Below are positions 14,052-20,276 of a stretch of 64,000 bases of DNA, piece after piece (position 1 is the stretch's first letter; each line of letters starts with the position of its first letter). The stretch comes from Planctomycetota bacterium. GTDB lineage: Bacteria > Planctomycetota > Planctomycetia > Pirellulales > UBA1268. Under the pieces are notes generated by a model. It had not been told where the DNA came from. It made no database searches and saw only the letters and a program-made list of their open reading frames with translations. The position numbers and the translations under genes were made by a program. The DNA is taken from NCBI GenBank assembly GCA_016872555.1, contig VGZO01000001.1:124001-188000 (forward strand), in the 5' to 3' direction.

Positions 14052-17729
<3,678 letters not shown>

Positions 17730-17935
17730 GGGGGCGAGTGGGGGGGATGGGAAGGAAATGCGGCGCGAAGGCCCGGAAAGCACCACTATGATAGGACGGC
17801 GGATCGAAACAGAAACCCCGAGCCGTCCACCGCCCCGTTGGCGCTCAAGGTGGCCCCGGGCGGCGGTCGATGCGCCACCGTCGGAAGGACCGGTCGTCGC
17901 GCCGGGCCCGTCGCGGCCATCCCGGACACACCGCC

Positions 17936-18451
17936 ATGGATCGACTCGACGCCGCGTTTCTCGCCCGCATCGGCCGTGGTGACGCCGGTCGTGCGGCGCT
18001 GCCCGGGGGGATGAGCGCCGCGGTAGCAGAGCCGGTCGCGCCCCTGCACCGGTTGGCCGATGCGGTGCTCGCGGCCGGTTGTCGGGTCGTGGCTGTCGCG
18101 GGTGCCGGCAGCGGTGTGGCCAGTCCGGTGGTGGTGGCCGGGATCGTCCGCGCCCTTGCCGCCCGGGGCCGTGTGGTGGGGCAGCGTGACGGCCCGGTCC
18201 TCCGCGCGGTGCCCGATGAGCCGGGTGCCGCGGGGGGCATCGTCGTCGTGCGCTGCGGCGACTGGTTTCCCCCCGGTGCCGTCAACCACCGTCGGCTGGT
18301 GAGCCTGGCCTGCGGCTGCGAGGGGGTGATCCTCGTGACGGCCTCGCCCCTTCCCTGCCCCGCCCACGTCGCGGCGCTCCGGGCGCTGGGCATCGCCGTC
18401 GTGGCGACGCTCCCCGCCGCAAGCTCCACCGGTGAGGAGGCGGCGGCATGA
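17936..18451 (+). CDS. Uncharacterised protein resembling a P-loop ATPase without an intact P-loop
   Basis: A 171-aa protein. Residues 51-75 ([20 protein letters not shown]) have the strand-loop-helix pattern of MinD/ParA or tyrosine-kinase-like nucleotide binders. The expected GKS/GKT is replaced by GVASP, so nucleotide binding in the usual way is unlikely. Alternating hydrophobic strands follow ([31 protein letters not shown]). ATG 17936 gives the start [12 protein letters not shown]. The stop overlaps the next gene in ATGA, so the two products should be made together. I do not recognise the family; the fold assignment is an inference. Confidence 0.6.
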
Positions 18452-19086
18452 ACGGCAGCCCGACGTGGACGCCGCGCCTGACCGGAGGGCAGGAAGCGGC
18501 CTGCGCGCGGGTGCTCTACGCCCTCGAACGCCCCGGGGGCGTGGCGATCCTCTGCGGGCCGGCCGGGACGGGCGTCTCGACGCTGCTCCACGGAATTCTC
18601 GGCCGCACGCGCGGCGGAGAGGTGCGCCTCGCGCGGTCGGTCGACACGGCGCGGCGGCTGCTCGCCACCGATGGCCTCGCGACGCTCCTCGTCGACGACG
18701 CCCACCTCGCCACCGCGGCAGCGCTCGGCGACCTGGTCGAGTCGGCCGAGGAAGCGCGCCACCCGGGCCTCGTCCTCGGCGGCCAGGGCCGTCTGCTCAC
18801 GCTCCTCCACCGCGCCCCGGCACTCGACGCCCGCGTCCGCGTGCGGGCGGTTCTCCAGCCGCTGACGCCGGCCGAGACCGCGACGATCGCCCACGAGCTC
18901 CGGCCGGCCGTGCGCTGGGGACCGGACAGCCTCCGCGTGCTCCACGAGATCGCCGGCGGGATCCCCGCGGGCGTCGTCAGGCTCGTCGAGCTGTGCGCCG
19001 TGGTCGCCGCCGCCGAGCCGGCCCGGCCGATCGACGCCGCCGACGTCGAGGCGATCCACGTGCGGCTGACGACGACGGCCGCGTGA
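18448..19086 (+). CDS. ExeA/GspA-like AAA ATPase with altered Walker A and B motifs
   Basis: A 212-aa protein with the layout of ExeA-type AAA ATPases, which in other bacteria help assemble secretion or exopolysaccharide machinery. The Walker A loop reads GPAGTGVST (37-45), with valine where the catalytic lysine belongs. Walker B reads TLLVDDAHL with Asp instead of the usual Glu at the second position. The C-terminal part (LQPLTPAETATIAHELR, LRVLHEIAGGIPAGVVRLVEL) matches the lid region of this group. It is translationally coupled to the upstream gene with another degenerate loop. It is probably a structural or regulatory ATPase homologue rather than an active enzyme. Confidence 0.65.
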   Translation: MNGSPTWTPRLTGGQEAACARVLYALERPGGVAILCGPAGTGVSTLLHGILGRTRGGEVRLARSVDTARRLLATDGLATLLVDDAHLATAAALGDLVESAEEARHPGLVLGGQGRLLTLLHRAPALDARVRVRAVLQPLTPAETATIAHELRPAVRWGPDSLRVLHEIAGGIPAGVVRLVELCAVVAAAEPARPIDAADVEAIHVRLTTTAA

Positions 19087-19094
19087 CCGTCGGC

Positions 19095-20276
19095 TCAGGG
19101 GGGGCTGACCGCCGCGGCCTCGACCCGCGCCAGGTAGGCGTCGACCGATTCGTCGTCGCATTCCGTATCGCGCCACGGGGCGAAGGCGTCGAGCCATGGC
19201 GCCGGCACGGCGCCGTCCAGCATGTCGGCGACGGCGACGGCGCTGCCCGTCGAGAGGTGCATGCCGGCGCGGAAGTGGCCTGTCGTCACCCAGACGTTGT
19301 CCCATCCCGGCACCGGGCCCAGCGTCGGACGGCCGTCACGGTTGCCGGGCCGCAGCCCCGACCACGACCGCTCGACGACCGCCCCGTCGACGTCGCCGAG
19401 CAGGCGCCGGGCGACGTCGATCAGCCCCGCCTCCCCCGCGGCCGTCGTCCGGTCGTCGAAGCCGACGTCCTCGATCGTCGCCCCGACGAGCAACCGTCCG
19501 TCGGGGCGCGGGACGAGGTAGTCGAGCCCGAACGACACGATCCGCGAGAGCAGTTGCCGGGGGAGCCTGACCAGCACGATCTGGCCGCGGATCGGCCGCG
19601 TCGGCAGGGCCAGCCCGAGCGCCGCCGCCAGCCCCTCGGACCAGCTCCCGGCGGCGAGGCAATACCGTTCGGCCCGGACCGTGCCGCCGTCGGTCCGCAC
19701 GCCGTCGACGCGCCGGCCGTCGAGCTCGAGCCCCTGCACGGTGGCGGTCGTGATCCTCACGCCCCGCGCCCGGCATGACGCGAGGAGGGCGTCGAGGTGC
19801 CGCGACGGCCGGATCTGCGCCTCGTCGGGGAGGATCACCCCGGCCGACACCGTGCCGCGGGCCACCGCCCCGCCGAGCGCCGGTTCGGCGGCGGCGACGG
19901 CCGTGCCGTCGCAGTCGATGCAGCGCACCCGGGCCGCGAGCCAGCGGGCGCGGGCGGCGGCGAGGCGCTCGCGTCCTGCACGCGTGCCGGCGACGTGGAG
20001 GCCGCCGCAGCGGCGCAGCCCGTTGTCGATCCCGGTCTCCGCGCGGAGCTCGTCCGCCCACTGCCAGTGGAGCCGGTCGCTGAAGGCGGTGAACCGTTCG
20101 AGCGCGGTCGCCGCGGGGCCATCGGCCACCGGGGGGAAGATCCCGGCCGCGGCCCACGACGCGGTCCGCTCGACGGGATCACGACACACCAGCTCGACGG
20201 CCGCGCCGCGGCCGGCCAGTTCGCGGGCCAGCGACAGGCCGATCACGCCGCCGCCGATGATGCAGCAGTCGGCCAT
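19095..20276 (-). CDS. thiO: FAD-dependent glycine/D-amino-acid oxidase family protein (ThiO-like)
   Basis: A 393-aa flavoprotein of the DAO family. The N-terminal dinucleotide motif CCIIGGGVIGLSLARELAGRG is intact. Further signatures are ASWAAAGIFPP (active-site loop), CLAAGSWS, RPIRGQIVLV, YLVPRPDGRLLVGATIEDVGF and the C-terminal WSGLRPGNRDGRPTLGPVPG followed by GHFRAGMHLSTGSA. This is the pattern of ThiO, which makes dehydroglycine for thiazole synthesis. No thiamine genes lie next to it, so another DAO-family substrate is possible. The gene ends 8 bases from the convergent ExeA-like gene, and the DUF3500 gene ends 4 bases upstream of its start. Confidence 0.8.
   Translation of the reverse strand: MADCCIIGGGVIGLSLARELAGRGAAVELVCRDPVERTASWAAAGIFPPVADGPAATALERFTAFSDRLHWQWADELRAETGIDNGLRRCGGLHVAGTRAGRERLAAARARWLAARVRCIDCDGTAVAAAEPALGGAVARGTVSAGVILPDEAQIRPSRHLDALLASCRARGVRITTATVQGLELDGRRVDGVRTDGGTVRAERYCLAAGSWSEGLAAALGLALPTRPIRGQIVLVRLPRQLLSRIVSFGLDYLVPRPDGRLLVGATIEDVGFDDRTTAAGEAGLIDVARRLLGDVDGAVVERSWSGLRPGNRDGRPTLGPVPGWDNVWVTTGHFRAGMHLSTGSAVAVADMLDGAVPAPWLDAFAPWRDTECDDESVDAYLARVEAAAVSPP

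Follow-up and report, generated by a model that had tools for sequence, protein, structure and literature searches.

Locus and neighbourhood

The window analysed here is a stretch of 64,000 nucleotides from a Planctomycetota genome (Pirellulales, UBA1268), and within it lie two adjacent genes, referred to as A and B, which an earlier note had picked out as a coupled pair of ATPase-like proteins that both lack the P-loop lysine. The features of the locus are the following.

17936-18451, plus strand: gene A, encoding a predicted BY-kinase-fold protein of 171 amino acids without the P-loop lysine (open reading frames, homologue alignment, model and profile)
18101-18124, plus strand: eroded P-loop of A, GAGSGVAS, residues 56-63, for which the usual family form is G(E/A)G(R/C)(T/S)T
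18448-19086, plus strand: gene B, encoding a short predicted AAA+ protein of 212 amino acids related to TIGR03015, its start overlapping the stop of A (ATGA)
18556-18582, plus strand: P-loop of B, GPAGTGVST, residues 37-45, with lysine replaced by valine (homologue alignment)
18685-18705, plus strand: Walker B motif of B, LLVDDAH, residues 80-86, with the catalytic glutamate replaced by aspartate (homologue alignment)
17730-17935, plus strand: the site that gene X, a putative membrane anchor, occupies in the rest of the family; in the window only 206 bp without a hydrophobic segment

The motifs that the earlier note had read, GAGSGVAS in A and GPAGTGVST together with the DD of Walker B in B, are found in the translated open reading frames, as is the overlap of the two genes, where the ATG of B overlaps the TGA of A (ATGA, 18448-18451). 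The same four-base overlap occurs in 12 of the 30 relatives that were read first, one of which (L003) is counted with a corrected A frame. In alignments with homologues the motifs fall opposite loops that are intact or nearly so and hence represent true P-loop columns, on which ground a chance motif is rejected. Gene A is taken to start with MDRLDAAF at 17936, a start that is conserved in relatives, the mechanical open reading frame opening at an ATG at 17870.

The pair is flanked in the window by metH and thiO on the minus strand, and the gene order exbB-exbD-xer-metH, A-B, thiO-mutM is common, whole or in part, to the 21 family loci that were compared. The neighbours of the operon, all named by eye, are metH, thiO, exbBD and xerC/D-like genes, not the exosortase or exopolysaccharide genes that characterise TIGR03015 loci; no polysaccharide or secretion gene was recognised adjoining the operon, and a GT39-like membrane protein lies downstream in some of the order-level loci. 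A search of 17600-19300 for promoters and terminators found none, a result that is uninformative at the prevailing G+C. A defence system was rejected as an explanation because A and B of the window are unmatched in PADLOC at 1e-3; one order-level A gave two weak PDC-M28B matches.

Homologues surveyed

The group codes used below (f1, g1 and so on) are those of the tool, with g1 being the window's genus. A match was obtained in 67 of the 72 genomes of the window's family, and incomplete assembly may explain the five without one. These gave 66 family copies from 65 genomes, with G171 and G172 left out as they hold only weak, paralogue-like matches and with G183 contributing two A-B copies (L093 and L094). 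The tree places one of the latter with g9, for which transfer, contamination or a mixed bin are all possible. The 19 order-level loci (a twentieth that was fetched, L089, was left out) were selected for closely spaced A and B matches and hence provide no measure of how frequently the pair is adjacent. A further 14 copies of A, comprising nine from f21, three from f24, one from f3 and one from f15, bring the survey to 99 planctomycete copies, and the 28 copies of B from outside the family comprise the 19 order-level ones, eight from f21 and one from f15. Gene A is also seen without B: in the stretches fetched, B is missing from three loci of f24 and from L138 of f21, and G037 has an A-like gene (L146) with no B beside it and no B match anywhere in the genome. 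A number of contigs that carry the Pirellulales-type locus are titled 'Candidatus Kuenenia stuttgartiensis' (L153, L157, L159, L164, L165, L174, L177, L178, L201, L202, L205 and L207) or 'Planctomicrobium piriforme' (L160, L191 and L204), and these look like misnamed MAGs.

Gene A

What kind of protein is A? The earlier note had described it as MinD/ParA-type, which is right as to superfamily, but by profile and by structure A sits nearer to the BY-kinases. The window copy alone is unmatched by the NCBIfam models and gives only a sub-threshold match to ACT_7 in Pfam, which was rejected as chance because the A profile and the structure point to BY-kinases. In the 19-row alignment of order-level A, 17 members match the BY-kinase models TIGR03018 and TIGR01007, with the first of them scoring 55.0 bits against a curated NCBIfam cut-off of 230.65. 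A profile of order-level A run against the PDB retrieves VpsO (6u1q) at 1.7e-27, followed by CapB, BceF, Etk and Wzc, and in this alignment the BY-kinase lysine faces the arginine of the family; the family-level and order-level profiles match one another with a probability of 99.5 (2.1e-23), and we take the homology as shown. With the predicted model of window A (pLDDT 80.0, pTM 0.70) the top 15 rows in VIA-align 2 are BY-kinases, with Z scores of 8.5-9.9, after which come SRP GTPases at no more than 8.0. Foldseek returned nothing below 0.001 for the same model, its first row being arylmalonate decarboxylase and Wzc appearing at rank 11. On the PDB profile match and the structural rows of the model, A has the predicted fold of a BY-kinase.

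The P-loop lysine is absent from every one of the 99 copies of A. Its position in the 66 family copies is filled by arginine in 47 and cysteine in 11, with alanine, valine, serine, proline or isoleucine in the remainder; the 19 order-level copies, read by eye, have ten arginines, four cysteines, two alanines and one each of serine, threonine and valine, and all nine f21 copies have arginine. Three ordinary BY-kinases from genomes of the same class retain GKS/GKT, one of them being encoded in the genome of the window. The Walker A' and Walker B aspartates are invariant in all 19 order-level copies, whereas family A lacks the Walker A' stretch and A of the window's genus is in addition without the P-loop and the Walker B aspartate, although here the WF..G motif is retained. 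The last 30 residues contain no tyrosine in 63/66 family and 16/19 order-level copies, and a single one in the others. Window A is thus missing the Walker A lysine, the Walker A' and Walker B aspartates and the tyrosine-rich C-terminal tail of a BY-kinase, and, judged by these motifs, is a BY pseudokinase of the EcpK and HfsB kind, with the fold but with neither the catalytic motifs nor the tail, and would be inactive.

Gene B

Gene B is related to TIGR03015, with window B scoring 29.3 bits (5.6e-7) and the first order-level B 176.6 bits against a curated cut-off of 324.5 bits. Order-level B proteins, at about 270 residues, match both TIGR03015 and AAA_22 in 19/19 cases, and the family proteins, at about 215 residues, align with their AAA+ part (99.9, 1.8e-32). 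Window B is modelled with confidence as an AAA+ fold (pLDDT 93.3), for which Foldseek places MuB, RuvB and RFC/clamp-loader subunits nearest, at 1e-8 to 1e-6. By this model B is an AAA+ protein, one in which valine and aspartate stand where an AAA+ ATPase has its Walker A lysine and Walker B glutamate. Longer frames of about 500-800 amino acids with a B-like AAA domain, present in several genomes of the family (G185:C12, G148:C251, G191:C52 and others), are perhaps full ExeA-like paralogues.

The loss of these residues is stepwise. Outside the family all 28 copies of B have the lysine: order-level B has it in 19/19, with the Walker B glutamate in 16/19 (the glutamate by eye), the f21 copies adjacent to A have it in 8/8, with the glutamate in 7/8, and the one f15 copy combines lysine with aspartate (by eye). 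Inside the family the glutamate is absent in 64 of the 66 copies and the lysine position is occupied by lysine in 38, valine in 14 and threonine in 14. The two copies with the glutamate (L106 and L122) both have threonine at the P-loop position. By genus, valine is found in 4/4 copies of the window's genus and in 8/8 of g3, threonine in 10/11 of g8, and g4 is mixed, with 15 lysines, four threonines and two valines. On a tree of B at least seven changes fall at this position, seven being the fewest required by a quick tree that was built with the lysine column masked, is weak at many of its forks and gives g2 a long branch. With the lysine in all copies outside the family, these changes are read as losses, about seven of them in the family and always to valine or threonine.

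The proposal in the earlier note of a conserved lysine-less pair thus divides between the two genes. For A it stands, as the lysine is gone from all 99 copies read, none of which has GKS/GKT. For B it does not, since close homologues beyond the window's genus do have an intact GKS/GKT, in 38/66 family copies and all those outside, and absence is confined to the genus of the window and some other lineages of the family. Degeneracy of one strain is nonetheless rejected, because the lysine is absent from all four copies of the genus and so is not the sequence error of a single strain.

Within the 28 lysine-less copies of B, G37, P38, G40, G42 and S/T44 are found in 28/28, as is R133, with R178 in 24/28, meaning that the lysine has gone without the surrounding site going; the residues about it show the same conservation as they do where the lysine is present. 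With the rest of its P-loop conserved, B could still be binding nucleotide, and this leads to a different account, in which A and B both bind nucleotide with other residues in place of the lysine and act as slow or locked switches, not inert scaffolds. Such an account draws, for its B side, on the retention of G37, G40, G42, S/T44 and the arginines and on the restriction of replacements to valine and threonine in seven lineages, where valine is two base changes from a lysine codon and other one-step changes (arginine, glutamate, glutamine, methionine, asparagine) are never seen, and for its A side on the match of 15/19 order-level A, at 0.01 or below, to the NCBIfam KGGVGR-motif variant NF047398. 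We consider it a minority possibility, because the catalytic glutamate is missing from nearly all family copies of B and because A of the window's genus has lost the entire loop and the Walker B aspartate.

Gene X

In most loci of the family A is preceded by a small gene, X, whose product starts like M.VIARFPDL and carries a single hydrophobic segment together with a short tail. A search with an X profile detects this gene at the locus in 19 of 20 genomes from the family but not the window's genus, the exception being G004, where a divergent X is visible by eye, and in none of the four genomes of the window's genus, where the gap between metH and A measures 146-206 bp (three of the four genomes measured). 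Beyond the family this search has little power; at the order-level loci a longer X was recovered by motif in 8/19, its product combining a single hydrophobic segment with a long, Pro/Ala-rich tail that has a conserved end. In f21 the end of X overlaps the start of A, and X there (L132-L137) terminates in a conserved GYLLP-type motif, a form of which is also seen in L070. The three-gene operon X-A-B is found in many planctomycete families. When 15 family and three order-level members of X were compared with Pfam only stray matches resulted, with none to a PCP-2/Wzz or GspB model, so X is not a recognisable PCP-2/Wzz protein and at this locus the parallel with EcpK comes without its defining partner.

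The shape of X outside the family, with its single hydrophobic segment and long, conserved-ended tail, brings to mind an assembly system of the ExeA/ExeB (GspB) type, in which X would correspond to ExeB, sitting in the inner membrane and extending an extracytoplasmic tail to an outer-membrane pore, B to the ATPase ExeA, and A would be an adaptor. The TIGR03015 match of every order-level B is in keeping with this, and according to PMC4098917 a complex of ExeA and ExeB is required for secretin assembly. We nevertheless regard it as improbable: inspection by eye revealed no secretin gene next to the operon, X is short in the window's family and absent from its genus, B stops after the AAA+ domain, and X is unmatched to the GspB model in Pfam.

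Selection on the pair

How have the two genes fared since these losses? For B, the window copy and its closest relative, a lysine-less copy of the same genus, give a dN/dS of 0.196. Eight pairs from g8 range over 0.085-0.28 and three from g3 over 0.202-0.244, and the one lysine-bearing pair, from g9, gives 0.203; pairs drawn from the same genus overlap one another and are not independent estimates. Lysine-less B at about 0.2 thus behaves like the lysine-bearing pair, which speaks of purifying selection and not decay, and a pseudogene pair is disfavoured by these values. For A the ratio is 0.397 in the window's genus and 0.21-0.59 elsewhere, against 0.063 for metH, and with values above those of metH gene A may be relaxing. 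None of the 66 family copies of B has an internal stop, and A and B are both open frames in 66/66.

The possible relaxation of A lends some colour to the idea that both genes are decaying toward loss, and are furthest along this path in the window's genus, from which X has already gone. The erosion is certainly stepwise, with A and B shortened, the glutamate lost, the lysine lost seven times, and X and the loop of A lost in g1, and dN/dS of A reaches 0.4-0.6 in some pairs. Yet the uninterrupted frames, a B ratio of about 0.2 with or without the lysine and the undiminished conservation of the residues that flank it make decay a very unlikely outcome. The opinion of the earlier note that this is not random decay is borne out by a pair that is old, adjacent, coupled and under selection, and its reading of the motifs of A and B as independently broken is likewise supported. 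Its description of the pair as non-catalytic holds for the loss of the catalytic residues, with inactivity itself a deduction from motifs. Altogether, the data suggest that both genes are kept intact by selection and would now serve as structural partners, not enzymes.

A proposed scaffold stripped of catalysis

The explanation that we propose, and to which we give an even chance of being correct, is that A-B is the still-selected remnant of the X-A-B operon, a scaffold of BY pseudokinase and AAA+ protein that was originally membrane-anchored and has been stripped of catalysis in the window's lineage. In the ancestral arrangement X would be a single-pass membrane protein, A a BY pseudokinase without a tyrosine tail, and B an AAA+ protein related to the XrtA and ExeA ATPases and able to hydrolyse ATP. 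By analogy with what is proposed for EcpK and HfsB with their polysaccharide co-polymerases, A may dock as a scaffold on its membrane partner, and B may act on the X-A assembly. The order of loss would begin with the lysine of A, continue with the N-terminal part and the glutamate of family B, then the lysine of B in about seven lineages, and end with X and the loop of A in the genus. After these losses B of the window's family would have become a structural AAA+ subunit, and in the window's genus an A-B scaffold would remain, its client probably being an envelope polymer or an export machine. That neither A nor B hydrolyses ATP is what their motifs would predict.

More tentatively, and with rather less confidence than in the scaffold itself, the module can be viewed as a case of convergence in the envelope, in which the pseudokinase lost its lysine first and the AAA+ partner followed repeatedly, always to valine or threonine and with no loosening of selection. 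An ATPase would in this way have been turned, over and over, into a fixed structural subunit, with the remainder of its P-loop kept for shape or for a ligand and not for catalysis.

Comparison with known systems

Experimental knowledge of BY pseudokinases so far extends to two cases, both with polysaccharide co-polymerases. Literature searches found no paper on a planctomycete BY pseudokinase or on such an operon; the single paper matching both 'planctomycet' and 'BY-kinase' (PMC11032199) reportedly concerns Ser/Thr kinases. If the present interpretation is true, it would add a BY-pseudokinase family that spans many planctomycete families, has AAA+ and single-pass partners, and lies outside any polysaccharide cluster that was seen. 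The repeated change from lysine to valine or threonine in B, with both states in one family, would also provide a ready-made series in which to study at what point, and for what reason, an AAA+ ATPase can quit ATP yet stay useful.

The closest precedents are EcpK of Myxococcus xanthus and HfsB of Caulobacter crescentus, which PMC12004946 presents as BY pseudokinases and proposed scaffolds for membrane partners. Gene A resembles them as a stand-alone BY-kinase fold with no working Walker motifs, no tyrosine-rich tail and an expected membrane-protein partner. It differs in that their partner is a PCP-2 polysaccharide co-polymerase whereas X is single-pass with no Wzz-type match, in being coupled to an AAA+ protein, and in that EcpK is without any Walker motif whereas order-level A keeps the aspartates and the loop glycine and threonine, though not the lysine.

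By profile, the families most similar to A and B are TIGR03018 (XrtA-associated tyrosine autokinase) and TIGR03015 (XrtA/PEP-CTERM ATPase), respectively. Both belong to exopolysaccharide/exosortase loci. Here, by comparison, the scores fall far below both cut-offs, no exopolysaccharide genes adjoin, and A has no lysine. NF047398 is alike in having, according to its name, arginine for lysine in the P-loop, but its match to order-level A is weak, with the sole score shown 27.7 bits against a cut-off of 90, and A is nearer to the BY-kinases.

ExeB is a single-pass protein with an extracytoplasmic tail, and ExeA and ExeB are not known to have a third partner with a BY-kinase fold. The type II secretion pair ExeA/ExeB (GspA/GspB; PMC4098917) is similar in combining an AAA+ ATPase with a single-pass membrane protein, while B, unlike ExeA/GspA, has no peptidoglycan-binding half.

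What, finally, of AAA+ proteins that have ceased to be enzymes elsewhere? In clamp loaders and ORC, inactive AAA+ subunits without nucleotide-site residues persist as structural subunits. Gene B differs from these in belonging to another family and in being paired with a BY pseudokinase.
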